This document shows, piece by piece, positions 17,010 to 23,516 of a stretch of 35,407 nucleotides of DNA (position 1 is the first letter of the stretch; every line of letters starts with the position of its first letter). Below the pieces are notes generated by a model. It saw nothing but the letters and a program-made list of their open reading frames with translations. It did no database searches and was not told the origin of the DNA. This DNA comes from Clostridia bacterium (GTDB taxonomy: Bacteria > Bacillota > Clostridia > Oscillospirales > CAG-382). The stretch is from the NCBI GenBank assembly GCA_017549405.1, contig JAFYUY010000139.1:1-35407 (forward strand). Reading direction: 5' to 3'. Made by a program: the position numbers and the translations under genes.

Positions 17010-18158
17010 ATGACAAACGACACTTACGGCAATGGGCATAAGAAGTACAGCGCAAAAAAGGCAGCTTTGTTGTTTACTACCGCCTTTTTGTGGATATATG
17101 CATCGTTTTTATACTGTTTTTTTACCTCAGCAAAGCCGACAGAGAAAATATCGGAAAAATATGATACCGCAATATTGGCAAAATCTTTAAAAAACTCCCC
17201 CGCCGTGCTCTTGCGGGAACGGTCGGTGCTTCCCCAAAATGATACGGCAACTACGCAGACCTCCATGCCCGAAAACATCACAACACCTCAAACAGAACCC
17301 GTATTTGAAGCTTTGCCCGAGCTTACAGCCGCATCCGTAACTTTATATGACCCGCAAACGGGAAAGGTCCTTGAATATTCGCAGGAGGATTACGTTACGG
17401 GTGTTGTACTTTCGGAAATGCCCGTATCCTTCGGTCACGAAGCCTTGCGTGCCCAGGCGATCGCCTGCAGAACATACGCTTTATATAACATACTCCGGGG
17501 CAGAGAACACCCATACGGTGCACAGCTTTGCACAGACCCCGCCCACTGTCAGGCTTTTTGCACCCCGGAAAATGCTTCGGAAGAAAAGCTTTTGGCGGTA
17601 AAAAGTGCTGTGCAATCCACCGCAGGCGAAATAATGCTTTACGATGGTGCACCCATCCTTGCCGTCTTCCATGCAAGCTCGGGCAAGAAAACAAAATCCT
17701 CCGCCGAGGTGTGGGGCGGAGAACTCAATTATCTTGTGTCGGTCGAAACACCCGAATGGCAGATAAACGACGGAGTAATAAACAAAAATTATACCTTTTC
17801 GGTGCAGGAATTCTCCTCACGCATACGCACGCTTTGCGAACTTTCGGGTCTTTCCGACCAACAGATAGCAAATAGCATCACGGTGCAAAAGGCGGATTCG
17901 GGAAAAGTCACGGGAGTATCGGTCTGCGGGGAATTTATCGGCGGCACTGCCTTTGCAAACGCTCTCGGACTCAGAACATCGGATTTTGATGTGTTCTGCG
18001 ACGGCAAAAATATAACCGTCACCTGTTACGGTTACGGTCATGGAGTGGGGCTGAGCCAGTACGGAGCACGGGAAATGGCTCGCCAAGGTGCAAATTGCTA
18101 TGATATACTTTCACATTATTATAGCGGAATCACCTTTTCTAAGACAAGCGGAGTTTAA
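17010..18158 (+). CDS. spoIID: Stage II sporulation protein D (peptidoglycan lytic transglycosylase)
   Basis: This 382-residue protein is anchored by one N-terminal membrane helix (about residues 17-40) with the enzyme domain outside. In the family, SpoIID cleaves glycan strands during engulfment with SpoIIM and SpoIIP. Visible signatures are DYVTGVVLSEMP with the catalytic Glu, EALRAQAIACRTYAL, the Cys/His-containing CTDPAHCQAF, the conserved FHASSGKKT-AEVWGG segment and YGYGHGVGLSQYGA near the C-terminus. The ATG at 17010 has AAAGGA upstream; a GTG at 16986 is less likely. A sigma-E-like promoter precedes it. It overlaps the convergent next gene by 20 bp. Confidence 0.94.
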   Translation: MTNDTYGNGHKKYSAKKAALLFTTAFLWIYASFLYCFFTSAKPTEKISEKYDTAILAKSLKNSPAVLLRERSVLPQNDTATTQTSMPENITTPQTEPVFEALPELTAASVTLYDPQTGKVLEYSQEDYVTGVVLSEMPVSFGHEALRAQAIACRTYALYNILRGREHPYGAQLCTDPAHCQAFCTPENASEEKLLAVKSAVQSTAGEIMLYDGAPILAVFHASSGKKTKSSAEVWGGELNYLVSVETPEWQINDGVINKNYTFSVQEFSSRIRTLCELSGLSDQQIANSITVQKADSGKVTGVSVCGEFIGGTAFANALGLRTSDFDVFCDGKNITVTCYGYGHGVGLSQYGAREMARQGANCYDILSHYYSGITFSKTSGV

Positions 18159-18477
18159 AGATACGTATGGGCACACCCATCTTTTTGCATAGCTTTGCGG
18201 TATGTATCGTTCCGCGGCTTTTACCGTCCCAGAAAGCAATAACAGTATCGGCATGACGCACTATCTCCTCGTTGCGAAAAAGCGGTGCCCGTCTGCCGTA
18301 ACGGTCATAATCCGGCAGTATCTCCACAAGGGGGATGCCGTTTGTCACGGCATACTCCGCCGCACATTTATCAACACCATTGGCACCACCGCTTATTATC
18401 TCCGTTGTGTCGGGCGGTAAAAATCTGCCGATGTCTTTTATTATAATGCTCCGCGAGCCTATAACTGCGACTTTCAT
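18139..18477 (-). CDS. SLOG-family (YspA/DUF2493-like) nucleotide-ligand-binding protein
   Basis: This 112-residue single-domain Rossmann-like protein carries the SLOG motifs: KVAVIGSRSI at the N-terminus, ISGGANGVDKCAAEYA in the middle, and RNEEIVRHADTVIAFWDGKSRGT. SLOG domains bind nucleotides or nucleotide-derived ligands; some act with effectors in stress or defence, but this short form has no effector domain and its role is unknown. GGAG lies about 12 bases before the ATG. A strong terminator ends only about 20 bp upstream of the start, so expression may depend on read-through from the structured RNA described next. Confidence 0.82.
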   Translation of the reverse strand: MKVAVIGSRSIIIKDIGRFLPPDTTEIISGGANGVDKCAAEYAVTNGIPLVEILPDYDRYGRRAPLFRNEEIVRHADTVIAFWDGKSRGTIHTAKLCKKMGVPIRIFKLRLS

Positions 18478-18496
18478 AATACTTTATACTCCAAAA

Positions 18497-18704
18497 TCAA
18501 AAGTGCGACCACCGAAGTGATCGCACAAAAATGCAGACTTCGATAGTCGCGAAACTAATCATATGTGAAATCGAATTTGCATTTCCATATAGGCTGAAAT
18601 CTGCATTTTTTACAAATTCACCTATACAAAAAAGACATGAACAAACAGGCGTGGTTCAAAAAGCAACTCACACCGATCTCACACACAATTTAATTAGTTT
18701 CGCA
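18497..18704 (-). ncRNA. Candidate structured non-coding RNA, about 205 nt
   Basis: A complete minus-strand transcription unit is visible without a coding frame. A consensus promoter (18710-18738) predicts a start near 18703-18705. The 5' end pairs perfectly over 11 bp with 18549-18559 (arms at 18693-18703), and the helix continues imperfectly through 18674-18685 with 18562-18573. Inside are a 9-bp hairpin (18665-18673 with 18648-18656, one bulge, 8-nt loop) and a second stem (18613-18619 with 18573-18579). The RNA ends in a UUCG terminator at 18499-18526. I do not recognise a known class; I see no T-box, cobalamin or SAM signature. 6S RNA or another Clostridia RNA family are possibilities. 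It could instead be the leader of the SLOG gene. Confidence 0.6.
18499..18526 (-). terminator. UUCG-tetraloop terminator of the structured RNA
   Basis: On the minus strand GTGCGATCAC-TTCG-GTGGTCGCAC forms a 10-bp stem with one G-U pair, followed by TTTT and, two bases later, another TTTT. This is a strong intrinsic terminator by eye, ending about 20 bp before the SLOG start codon. Confidence 0.8.
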
Positions 18705-18709
18705 CTTTT

Positions 18710-18738
18710 ATTATACACCACTTTTTTAAAAAATACAA
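18710..18738 (-). promoter_or_regulatory. Promoter of the structured RNA
   Basis: On the minus strand TTGTAT (18733-18738), a 17-base spacer and a perfect TATAAT (18710-18715) are followed within about 6 bases by the first paired base of the RNA's closing stem. Confidence 0.75.
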
Positions 18739-18814: not shown

Positions 18815-19972
18815 TTATTTTTCCGGAATAAGTACAAATATTCCGTTTGAATCCTTAAGCTGATCTCTTATCTGAACAGGTGCTTTACCTGATGCCGCAG
18901 TACTTACACCTTTAAGACCTCCGAGCGTCTTGCCCTCGTCCTGAACATAAATATTGCTGTCGAAAAGCTCGCAGCTGCGTTTATCCACGTCGAGAAGATA
19001 TCCCGCGCAGCGGTCTATGATAGTGAATCTGCACAGCATATTTTCATTTTCCGCATCCACTGTGGAGAAGGAGTAAAGGCGGGCATGGCTCTGTCTGTTT
19101 GTAACTATGGACCCCCAGCCGTAACCTCCCATACGCAGCACGTTATACTGCGAAAGATAGTTTTTAAGGCTGGTCGTTTTATTATCGCCCGTAGGCTTTA
19201 TCCAGCATTCTATACCCCAGTGAACATATTCCATAAGGTTTCCGGAATATTCTATTCCGTTCATGCGGAGGTCGTTTCCCTGATGTGTTACGGCTGTATC
19301 GTATATCTGATACATCCAGTTATTCTTTACGTAATAGCCTTCAAGGTTGCCATAAACTTCAACGGCATTTCCGAATTGCGTGGTAGTTTCTCCATGGTTT
19401 CCGAGGAGCGAACCGCCAAGCCACGAGAATTCGCAGTTGGTAACATTCAGGTTTTTTACGCCTCCCAGTCCTATTCCGTGAGTACCCGTGTGCTTTACGT
19501 GTACGTTATCTATTGTGATGTCATTTCCGCCGCCGTCAAAAACATCACCGCTATCGCCAATCTCTATGGACGAAAATCTTTCACCCGGGTTTCCCTGCGT
19601 GCTGCAGAGATAAAGGGTGTTGGGCGAGGAATAGAACTGCAGATCTTTGGTGAGTCCTTTATAATCGGCAATGTTTGCACCGTAAATGCGGTTTTTGCCG
19701 TAAAGGCCGTCGTAATTTCCGTGGGCATCCGATGCGTGATCAAATACGATGATACCAACGTTAACAATGTTTTCCTTCAGCTTATAAACATTGGGGGCAT
19801 CTGTCAATTCCCAAAGGGCGGGATCGGCAAAGTTTTTCCTGGAACCCGAAATCACGGGTTTGTCGCCTGTGCCGTAGGAGCCGTAAAGCATGCCCGATAC
19901 AACGTTTATCTGACCGCGGTATATTCCACCTCGCTCAAACAGCACGGCTGTATTTGCTCCCGGGAAACGCAT
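18815..19972 (-). CDS. Beta-helix (pectate-lyase-like) domain, cut off from the SLH gene by an in-frame stop
   Basis: These 385 residues form a right-handed beta-helix domain closely similar to the protein at 22065. Shared segments include AVLFERGGIYRG versus NILFERGGVWRG, HGIGLGG versus HGVGIGG, and NWMYQIYDTAVTHQ versus NWIYQIYDTAITHQ. The frame is continuous with the SLH gene upstream. After its TAA (20048-20050), 25 in-frame codons lead to the ATG at 19972, and those codons (KNVNDDNDGKSPEKAL) also match the homologue (NSGNDENDGKSPESAW). This is therefore best read as the C-terminal part of one 989-codon surface protein. A weak AAGG before the ATG leaves reinitiation possible. Such folds occur in polysaccharide lyases and glycosidases. 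Confidence 0.8.
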   Translation of the reverse strand: MRFPGANTAVLFERGGIYRGQINVVSGMLYGSYGTGDKPVISGSRKNFADPALWELTDAPNVYKLKENIVNVGIIVFDHASDAHGNYDGLYGKNRIYGANIADYKGLTKDLQFYSSPNTLYLCSTQGNPGERFSSIEIGDSGDVFDGGGNDITIDNVHVKHTGTHGIGLGGVKNLNVTNCEFSWLGGSLLGNHGETTTQFGNAVEVYGNLEGYYVKNNWMYQIYDTAVTHQGNDLRMNGIEYSGNLMEYVHWGIECWIKPTGDNKTTSLKNYLSQYNVLRMGGYGWGSIVTNRQSHARLYSFSTVDAENENMLCRFTIIDRCAGYLLDVDKRSCELFDSNIYVQDEGKTLGGLKGVSTAASGKAPVQIRDQLKDSNGIFVLIPEK

Positions 19973-20047: not shown

Positions 20048-21784
20048 TTAGGAAACATAATATTTGTTTTTACGGGGTTCGTAGATCTCGTAGGTGTTGG
20101 GAGTATTGAGAATATCGTCCTTCATCTTTTCGGAAATGGCATCTATTCCGCGGCGTATGGCATCCCCGGTCAGATTTTTACCCGCCTCGTGAAGCGAGGT
20201 TATATATTCCTGCGCACAATTTCCCGTGAGAACATACTCTTTTGCCGCAGTATCTGTGCTCCATGCGTTTTCAGCAGACGAGCTTGCGGCGGCAACTATC
20301 TGTCCGCTTGCCCAGTGAGCATCGATATCGGAAAATTTTGCACCGTGCAGGCTATCCTGCGGAATTCTTTTGAGAATACGGTTTATTACCGTTACGGTCT
20401 CCGCACGGGTTATGTTTTCCATCGGACGGAATGTGCCGTCCATGTAACCTTCAATTATACCGTTTGACGCTGCGTAAACCACGGCATCGTACCAGCGGTC
20501 GGAGTATTCCACATCGGGAATAACGGGTATTCTCACACTGTCGTAGCTTCTGTCGGATAAAGCATAAATTATTTCCGTAAGCTCCGCCCGGGTTATTTTT
20601 TTGTCGGGTTCAAAGTTTTCGTCAAATATGGCAAGCGCACCGAGTGAATCAAGAAGAGCCACATATTTTAAGTACCATGCATCCGACGGGATATCGGAAA
20701 ATCTTGTGACATTCGCTTCGGGAATATCCGCACCCAAGATCGATGCTATAATCTTTGCAGCCTCTGCACGGGTAACATTTTCCTGAGGCAAAAATGTGCC
20801 GTTGGGATAACCGCTTATATATGAATCCGAAAATGCAGAAAAATTGAATTTGAAGTTGAAGCCCGGCACAAAGAAAATATCCTCTCCGGCAAGCATTTCA
20901 AAACTGTCGCCCGCATTGTATTTCTCACCGTCAAAGGTGCATATCCAATGCGAAAATTCCGCGCCCACGGGGAGCGTTCCGTTAAATCCGGGCAAGATAA
21001 AGCTTTCGAGATCGGTGCATTTTATGGTGGCGATCGCTTTTTCGATGCTGCCGGCATGGGTCTCGTTTTCAAAGAAATATGCAGTTCTTTCACCAAACAC
21101 CGAGTCATCATCGGGGTGCCAGCTCTGAATGGAGATTTCACCGAGATAAAGGGCATCGTTTTTGCCCATGTTGCGCTCCAGCGGGTAGAACTTCATCTGA
21201 TGGAGATAATAGAGTCCATCGGAATACTTATTTCTGATGAGCGCTTCAATAGAAGGGTTGGCAGCCAGCGGAATTATCAGCTTCGACCATTTATTGGCAG
21301 TTATGGTATTTTCGGAAAATGCGTGATTGCCCCATCCGAATTCTATTATCTGAGAAAGGTTTTCTTCGGGAACTATTCTTCCCTGAACCCACCTCATGCG
21401 GGCACCCTCAAGGGCGGGTGATGCATCGGGGGACTCATAGTAATAGTCCATAACGATGTATTTTGCCGTGTGGAGCGGAACGTAATCGCCGTTACCGTCG
21501 GCAAACATACCCCAACGATACATACAGAAGTTTATGGAAGTATCGTCGGAGCCCGTTCTGCCTATATAGCGGACCTCGTGGCCGTCAAAAGTCTCCAGCT
21601 GTGTTTCGTAGCCTCTGTAGTCATCTTCAAAGGCGGAAATGTTTTTTGTGGGAAGAGTCTGCTTTGCAAAAGCATTTAAGTTATCGTTTTTACTTTCGGC
21701 AAACACTGCGGGGAAAGCCTGCAAAACAAGGCATATTGCGAGCATTACCGCAAAAAGCCTTGAAGATACGTTTTTTTTGATCAT
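20048..21784 (-). CDS. Secreted SLH-domain surface protein (N-terminal part of an interrupted gene)
   Basis: These 578 residues begin with a signal peptide (MIKKN then a hydrophobic stretch ending VFAES). A beta-rich region of unknown type follows (about 40-260). Three S-layer-homology repeats (about 310-505) are recognisable by FSDSYISGYPNGTF, TRAEAAKIIASILG, FSDIPSDAWYLKYVA, ITRAELTEIIYAL, YSDRWYDAVVYAASNGIIEGYMDGTF and ITRAETVTVINRIL. SLH repeats tether proteins to pyruvylated wall polymers. The last 70 residues are a helical linker that matches the N-terminus of the protein at 22065, and the frame stops at TAA exactly inside that shared region. AAAGGA precedes the ATG. Without the beta-helix domain the product would be an anchor without its catalytic part. 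Confidence 0.88.
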   Translation of the reverse strand: MIKKNVSSRLFAVMLAICLVLQAFPAVFAESKNDNLNAFAKQTLPTKNISAFEDDYRGYETQLETFDGHEVRYIGRTGSDDTSINFCMYRWGMFADGNGDYVPLHTAKYIVMDYYYESPDASPALEGARMRWVQGRIVPEENLSQIIEFGWGNHAFSENTITANKWSKLIIPLAANPSIEALIRNKYSDGLYYLHQMKFYPLERNMGKNDALYLGEISIQSWHPDDDSVFGERTAYFFENETHAGSIEKAIATIKCTDLESFILPGFNGTLPVGAEFSHWICTFDGEKYNAGDSFEMLAGEDIFFVPGFNFKFNFSAFSDSYISGYPNGTFLPQENVTRAEAAKIIASILGADIPEANVTRFSDIPSDAWYLKYVALLDSLGALAIFDENFEPDKKITRAELTEIIYALSDRSYDSVRIPVIPDVEYSDRWYDAVVYAASNGIIEGYMDGTFRPMENITRAETVTVINRILKRIPQDSLHGAKFSDIDAHWASGQIVAAASSSAENAWSTDTAAKEYVLTGNCAQEYITSLHEAGKNLTGDAIRRGIDAISEKMKDDILNTPNTYEIYEPRKNKYYVS

Positions 21785-22064: not shown

Positions 22065-23516
22065 ATGTATACAGAAAAACTTACTCCCGCGGCGATAAAT
22101 GCCGTAAAAGCCATTGACGAGCTGAATTCCAAAAACATCACGGACTATGCCCTTTACGAAAAAGGCATTGATGAAGTTTCTGAGCAGTTAAAGCGTGATG
22201 TTATAAATGCCCAAAGCGACTATGACCCGTCGCTTCCCACATTTTATGTTTCAAATTCGGGAAATGACGAAAACGACGGCAAAAGTCCCGAATCCGCATG
22301 GAAGACCCTTGATAAAATAAATGATGCAGGTTCCACACCCGAGCACTGCAACATTCTTTTTGAGCGTGGCGGAGTGTGGCGCGGATGCATAAATCCACCA
22401 CACAACTACATAACCTATTCCGCATACGGCAAGGGCAAAAAGCCTTGCATCTACGGTTCGTGGCGCAATTATGCGGATCCCGCTCTCTGGCAGAAGACCG
22501 AATATCCCCACGTATGGTACACCGATGCGTGCGGCAAGAACATAGGCATCTGTGCCATAAACCACAGCGATGAATACGGAAGATACGATGAGCTTGTGGC
22601 TTTCCGTTGCGTGCAGGGCGTACATGGATTTGAGGGTCCGCAGAACTTTACCCGAAACATGGAATACTGGTCCGAGGTCGAAAAGCCGGGCTTTTATCTG
22701 CGTTGCGAATACGGAAATCCCGGAGAAGTTTTTGAATCCATAGAGCTTGGTGAGCGTGTGAACCTCATTACGGGTGCAGATCATATAAAAATAGATAATC
22801 TCTGCGTAAAATATTCAGGTGCTCACGGTGTTGGCATTGGCGGAAAGACAGATTATACCGTGCAGAACTGCATATTCTGCTATCTCGGCGGTTCCATTCT
22901 TACGGGCTTTAACGGCGGAAACAAAGTTGGCTACGGCAATGCCGTGCAGGTTTACGGAGAATGCTTCGGCTATTACGTAAACGGCAACTGGATATATCAG
23001 ATATACGACACCGCCATAACCCATCAGTTCAGCGGTACACGCTCCGATAAACCAAACCACATGAAGGATGTGGAATATATAGGCAACCTTTGCGAATATT
23101 GCCACTGGTCGATAGAATACTATAATCCTGCAAGCGTGACCGTTCCCGAAACACCGAGAACTGTTAAGAATGTAAATGTTTCCCACAATGTTCTGCGCAT
23201 GGGCTGCTATGGTTGGGGAAGCCGGGGACGTGAGGATAACGGTGCGCTGTTCAACAGCTTCAGTATGACACCCGAAACCGAAAACTTCGAGGCTCATTCC
23301 AATATCATGGACAGATGCCTTGGAAAAATGGTGCGTCTTACTGTGGGCGGCGACGAAAAGCTGATTTCTTCCGATAACACTTTTATTCAGCAGGAGGGCA
23401 GAGCCTTTGGCTGGTGCTACGGTCAGAATTATGCCTTCACCCGTGAAAATGCGGAAAAGTATGCCAACGAGCTTTTCCACGACAAATCGGCTAAGGTGAT
23501 CTTCTCCGAAAGCTGA
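22065..23516 (+). CDS. Cytoplasmic right-handed beta-helix (pectate-lyase-like) protein
   Basis: The protein has 483 residues and no signal peptide. A helical N-terminus (residues 1-65) precedes a parallel beta-helix domain that begins after TFYVSNSGNDENDGKSPESAWKTL, a typical entry motif for such folds. The whole length aligns by eye with the C-terminal end of the SLH protein at 20048 plus the domain at 18815, so the two are paralogues, one surface-bound and one intracellular. The exact activity (lyase, epimerase or hydrolase) cannot be read. AAGGAG precedes the ATG. It is the first gene of a two-gene operon with a heparinase-like lyase 20 bp downstream, so it may process oligosaccharides after uptake. 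Confidence 0.78.
   Translation: MYTEKLTPAAINAVKAIDELNSKNITDYALYEKGIDEVSEQLKRDVINAQSDYDPSLPTFYVSNSGNDENDGKSPESAWKTLDKINDAGSTPEHCNILFERGGVWRGCINPPHNYITYSAYGKGKKPCIYGSWRNYADPALWQKTEYPHVWYTDACGKNIGICAINHSDEYGRYDELVAFRCVQGVHGFEGPQNFTRNMEYWSEVEKPGFYLRCEYGNPGEVFESIELGERVNLITGADHIKIDNLCVKYSGAHGVGIGGKTDYTVQNCIFCYLGGSILTGFNGGNKVGYGNAVQVYGECFGYYVNGNWIYQIYDTAITHQFSGTRSDKPNHMKDVEYIGNLCEYCHWSIEYYNPASVTVPETPRTVKNVNVSHNVLRMGCYGWGSRGREDNGALFNSFSMTPETENFEAHSNIMDRCLGKMVRLTVGGDEKLISSDNTFIQQEGRAFGWCYGQNYAFTRENAEKYANELFHDKSAKVIFSES

Follow-up and report, generated by a model that had tools for sequence, protein, structure and literature searches.

On the minus strand of contig JAFYUY010000139.1 (assembly GCA_017549405.1), whose 35,407 nt form the window analyzed here and supply all coordinates, a promoter, a structured RNA and an intrinsic terminator precede a short gene for a SLOG protein (Table 1). 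The first-pass annotation had described an unrecognized structured RNA with its own promoter and terminator, and its elements agree with the sequence. TATAAT stands six bases ahead of the first base of the long-range helix P1 (18715-18710 relative to G18703). The 11-bp perfect helix is correct base for base (18703-18693 with 18549-18559, all Watson-Crick pairs) and is followed by a twelfth pair, the wobble U18692-G18560. The 10-bp UUCG terminator reads GTGCGATCAC-TTCG-GTGGTCGCAC (18526-18503) and runs into T18502-18499. Its predicted folding energy as RNA is -81.6 kcal/mol for the whole leader, compared with -47.7 +/- 4.2 kcal/mol for dinucleotide shuffles (z -8.2; 0/200). Absent from that annotation were a 15-bp pseudoknot, an antiterminator, the downstream Shine-Dalgarno sequence and ATG, and the homologues described below.

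Table 1. Elements of the leader and of the gene behind it
Feature	Position	Strand	Evidence
-35-like hexamer TTGTAT, weak, 17-nt spacer to -10	18733..18738	-	sequence
-10 element TATAAT	18710..18715	-	sequence; position kept in 110/112 copies
Leader RNA, about 205-211 nt	18493..18703	-	cmsearch R1 150.1 bits, E 1.7e-28 (this copy belonged to the R1 seed); fold z -8.2
P1 5' strand	18692..18703	-	12 pairs, 99.4% of cells paired, 45 relatives
Apical hairpin, 18619-18613 with 18597-18603, loop 18612-18604	18597..18619	-	312/315 cells paired
Pseudoknot 5' strand AAAAATGCAGATTTC	18596..18610	-	15 pairs, 99.8% of cells paired, double changes in 3 pairs
P1 3' strand	18549..18560	-	as for P1 5' strand
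Alternative 4-bp hairpin UAGU(UUCGCG)ACUA, rival of P1 and antiterminator	18544..18557	-	180/180 cells paired
Antiterminator 5' strand CTATCGAAGT	18537..18546	-	98.4% of cells paired vs <=54.5% slid
Pseudoknot 3' strand GAAGTCTGCATTTTT	18527..18541	-	as for pseudoknot 5' strand
Antiterminator 3' strand ACTTCGGTGG (terminator loop and start of 3' arm)	18509..18518	-	co-change of columns 198/236
Intrinsic terminator, 10 bp, UUCG loop, T run	18499..18526	-	paired and covarying in family alignment
Shine-Dalgarno GGAG of downstream gene	18489..18492	-	sequence; arrangement common across family
Downstream gene, 112 aa, SLOG (YspA/YAcAr, DprA-like) protein, ATG 18477	18139..18477	-	Pfam PF10686 7.7e-08, above curated cut-off

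Elsewhere in the window, two similar large proteins, encoded at 18815-19972 (minus strand, no Pfam match) and 22065-23516 (plus strand), look like divergent paralogues; an SLH-domain protein (20048-21784, minus strand) lies between them.

Distribution and relation to known RNAs

A BLAST search of 99 relatives gave eight copies that could be used, including a pair lying near each other in this genome. Searching genome contigs with a pattern built on the conserved 3' strand yielded at least 118 loci; because the pattern fixed part of this strand, the invariance seen there is partly selected, and P1-5', the apical loop, and the loop and 3' arm of the terminator were left free. Among the matches listed, nearly all come from gut Clostridia/Oscillospiraceae assemblies of herbivores and other animals, one belongs to the isolate Pumilibacter intestinalis CLA-AA-M10 (L070), and two are on viral contigs. 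The covariance model R1 detects members in 42 of 119 relatives, with up to 12 matches per genome; in 298 other genomes sampled from across the phylum and searched under stricter filters, it finds none. Its plus-strand match at 18549-18714 (25.7 bits) was discarded as the mirror of palindromic helices.

The genome itself (59% complete) holds five copies: the window's on contig C137, one on C105 and three in tandem on C53. The tandem copies (L008:1502-2349) share a strand, lie about 130 nt apart and are followed by a 77-aa gene; the middle one belongs to a shorter subtype, and tandem leaders are otherwise rare here. This subtype, of about 165 nt, retains every part; in some members the P1 sequence is replaced by GCGACAUAA...UUGUGUCGC. 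In its members (L044, L049, L098, L167-L172 and others) the 5' arm of the apical hairpin, GUGUUUUU, imitates the pseudoknot 3' strand, so that hairpin and pseudoknot fully exclude each other. Copies also occur in an unannotated human-gut phage record (L203, MT835503.1:377-538) and in two IMG/VR contigs (L129 and L130), where the gene downstream of the RNA resembles a lipoprotein.

Scanned against Rfam at the gathering threshold, the whole window gave two tRNAs only, and a permissive whole-library cmscan (E up to 10) of the window region and seven homologue loci gave nothing credible. Weak miRNA-like matches in the latter were set aside as chance, the pseudoknot strands having been read as a hairpin. 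Thus the Rfam comparison proposed by the first-pass annotation (6S, raiA and others) left the RNA without a matching family; the proposed search for homologues produced a family whose helices covary, and this covariation, together with the conserved promoter and terminator, bears out the claim of a structured RNA. The suggested likeness to 6S RNA did not survive. The two have length and a long closing helix in common, whereas pseudoknot, antiterminator and placement ahead of genes set the present RNA apart. RF00013 matched neither the window region nor the homologues at E up to 10, the genome contains a separate candidate for 6S RNA, and most copies have a gene start behind the terminator. That candidate (C66:8-236) is weak, scoring 37.1 bits and falling under the gathering score; the Rfam model seems to capture this group's 6S RNA poorly. 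What stands of the earlier reading is therefore the novel structured unit, now seen as a cis-acting leader with pseudoknot and antiterminator instead of a free-standing RNA.

The raiA RNA of Clostridia shares a length of about 200 nt, occurrence in Firmicutes and a pseudoknot; its model matched neither the window region nor the seven homologue loci in the whole-library cmscan at E up to 10. T-box leader models gave no match in the Rfam scans. The consensus strings of the RNA did not occur in the main texts of the open-licence papers searched, nor did we meet a name for the family in that literature. In the parts of PMC11109978, PMC8632094 and PMC8040213 matched by our search terms, these bacteria were not among the matches. 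The family is widespread in gut Clostridia and apparently undescribed.

Covarying helices and strand exchange

In A3, a structure-blind alignment of 45 diverse members, P1, pseudoknot and terminator together are paired in 99.4% of cells, and 12 pairs carry double changes. None of 500 shuffles scored as high, and sliding the strands against each other left at most 47.5% of cells paired. In the pseudoknot, AAAAAUGCAAAUUCC of the apical hairpin pairs over 15 bp with GGAGUUUGCGUUUUU immediately 3' of P1, and even the lengths of the homopolymer runs are matched: loops with four As face five Us in 28 of 28 copies (4/6, n=0), and loops with five As mostly face six (59 of 77; 5/5, n=16). The window copy contributes double changes of its own: P1 pair 3 has gone from C-G to G-C, and two pseudoknot pairs have changed, one from A-U to G-C and the other from C-G to U-A. 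The internal region, P2-P4, is poorly conserved in sequence, in contrast to most metabolite aptamers.

The strand 3' of P1, CUAUCGAAGU, is complementary also to the loop and 3' arm of the terminator, ACUUCGGUGG, and their pairing constitutes an antiterminator. Across the family, CUAUCGGAGU and ACUUCGGUAG are paired in 98.4% of cells, compared with at most 54.5% when slid, and CUAUCGGAGU also supplies the first part of the pseudoknot 3' strand. The antiterminator has one variable pair: A198 faces U236 in 23 of 26 copies, and U198 does so in 4 of 85. Ten of 111 copies break the helix at columns 198/236, and one subtype II copy, with a GAAA loop, has a weakened antiterminator. A classical antiterminator formed from the terminator 5' arm alone had been tried and rejected after a swap test showed no co-evolution (own better in 0.517 of comparisons; positive control 0.849); the antiterminator identified later uses the terminator loop and 3' arm, not the 5' arm alone.

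Column 198 has a further partner. P1 column 187 is complementary to it in 110 of 111 copies, as required by the alternative hairpin. When changes were mapped on a tree from which these columns had been left out, each of the 12 inferred at column 198 was accompanied by a complementary change at 187, and 9 of them also by one at 236; these event counts are approximate, as a tree from about 200 columns of a short RNA overcounts events. Because column 198 changes with both 187 and 236, the neighbors of a single base are linked in a chain that runs P1-5' / P1-3' / antiterminator-5' / terminator-3' / terminator-5', in which each strand pairs with one neighbor or the other. Terminator, antiterminator and pseudoknot thus share strands and change together, the arrangement of an expression platform with mutually exclusive structures. 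For the window copy, the antiterminator and terminator folds are predicted to lie 0.9 kcal/mol apart (-83.1 against -82.2 kcal/mol; mean difference in the family 1.8). Such near-equal energies of the 3' folds suggest a poised switch, whose outcome could be decided by a factor that tips the pseudoknot or P1.

Position ahead of genes

The -10 element lies six to eight bases ahead of P1 in 110 of 112 relatives (exactly six in 95), compared with 83 of 555 control positions, and 93 of 110 family promoters match the -35 consensus at four or more of six bases. At the other end, 84 of 105 copies are followed by a Shine-Dalgarno sequence and ATG no more than 115 nt away; the divergent strand gives 5 of 105 and random positions give 9.2. 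Together with the conserved promoter position, this places the RNA in the 5' leader of a gene, where a riboswitch would be expected. Gene starts mostly fall 15-35 nt past the T run, a gap with scarcely any space for a second promoter; about one fifth of the copies have no close gene start behind them.

The 91 downstream proteins match 70 Pfam families and do not point to a single metabolite or signal. Among them are BspA-type leucine-rich repeats (8), dockerins (4), List_Bact repeats (4) and MazE/AbrB-like proteins (4); zinc ribbons, trypsin-like proteins, EcoRI methylase-like proteins (2) and SLOG proteins (2) also occur. The genes right after the RNA at L077 and L081 appear to be the two EcoRI-type adenine methylases of this tally. 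By a simple hydropathy rule, 34 of 72 downstream proteins carry an N-terminal signal or membrane segment, compared with 62 of 382 neighbors (p 5e-8), and lipoboxes, scored by the same rule, are found in 15 of 72 and 19 of 382, respectively.

A leader fixed to SLOG genes was considered and rejected: of 30 SLOG homologue loci in relatives, the window's is the only one that carries the RNA, which marks the leader as portable. Two further copies, L063 and L091, both in assembly SIG706, each precede a SLOG gene resembling the window's.

A proposed attenuation mechanism and its alternatives

Taken together, these features make it probable, judging from sequence and its comparison, that the RNA is a cis-acting leader that regulates its downstream gene through transcription attenuation, in the manner of a riboswitch. 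The poor sequence conservation of P2-P4, the copies without a close gene start and those with a broken or weakened antiterminator speak against this reading. We infer that the switch operates and which state is ON, the latter from the logic of the terminator. Transcription would begin with the first base of P1 or close to it. The strand right after P1 (CUAUCGAAGU, then CUGCAUUUUU) would have two competing partners. If it paired with the apical loop to form the pseudoknot, the terminator could fold and transcription would stop after about 205 nt. If P1 were kept and the pseudoknot absent, the strand would pair with the terminator loop and 3' arm instead, allowing readthrough into the SLOG gene. 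The P1 3' strand, in turn, may pair with ACUA, competing with both P1 and the antiterminator. One state would then consist of P1 and the antiterminator, the other of the alternative hairpin and the terminator, with the pseudoknot.

Leader position, closing helix, pseudoknot, exclusive terminator and antiterminator, and tandem copies are all shared with transcription-attenuating riboswitches as a kind; unlike these, the RNA matches no Rfam class, its internal region is poorly conserved in sequence and its downstream genes have no common pathway. We put forward as a tentative proposal, drawn from the alignments, that it may represent a new and widespread riboswitch class of gut Clostridia, often with several copies per genome, that acts on accessory and cell-surface genes through a five-strand exchange gated by the pseudoknot. 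The signal could be a small molecule, a protein, or folding kinetics alone. Cyclic di-GMP as a general signal was rejected, as 27 of the 42 RNA-bearing genomes, several of them more than 95% complete, have no GGDEF domain. A less likely form of the attenuator reading has a protein or polymerase-bound factor, not a small molecule, as the reader of the same structure. The conserved sequence consists of P1, apical loop and 3' strand and does not form a compact unpaired core, and the regulated genes share no pathway, both in keeping with such a reader; no gene recurs beside the RNA across copies that could encode the factor. The eps-associated RNA (EAR) and the put antitermination RNAs are structured RNAs that help polymerase pass terminators, whereas readthrough here would be explained by a base-paired antiterminator, and neither matched in Rfam.

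With its promoter, paired 5' end and terminator the unit is complete in itself and would also suit a small RNA of the 6S-like or base-pairing sort, standing on its own and ending at the terminator beside an incidental gene; the roughly one-fifth of copies without a nearby gene start would fit this too. We consider this unlikely: such an RNA would have no use for an antiterminator, gene starts lie just past the terminator far more often than in the controls, and the 6S-like version lacks an RF00013 match in a genome with its own 6S candidate. Slightly less credence still goes to a portable promoter-leader cassette or selfish repeat inserted before genes without regulating them. The patchy, multi-copy occurrence with three tandem copies in this genome, the single carrier among 30 SLOG loci, and the copies on two viral contigs and a phage record would all fit, but long-term compensatory evolution of three competing helices is unexpected for a passive repeat. 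Type III toxin-antitoxin systems such as ToxIN also line up a promoter, a pseudoknotted RNA (ToxI), a terminator and a gene, the toxin, in this order. We give this identity almost no weight, since the RNA lacks tandem repeats, none of the 25 commonest families among the 91 downstream proteins is ToxN-like, and the window's gene encodes a SLOG protein.

All parts of a complete RNA switch are present at more than 100 loci in herbivore and other gut genomes, and no Rfam family covers them. Its competing helices allow exact single-base tests. The hosts are mostly uncultured bacteria, and the enrichment of secreted proteins and lipoproteins among the downstream genes suggests that the signal may serve in managing contact with the host or its diet.
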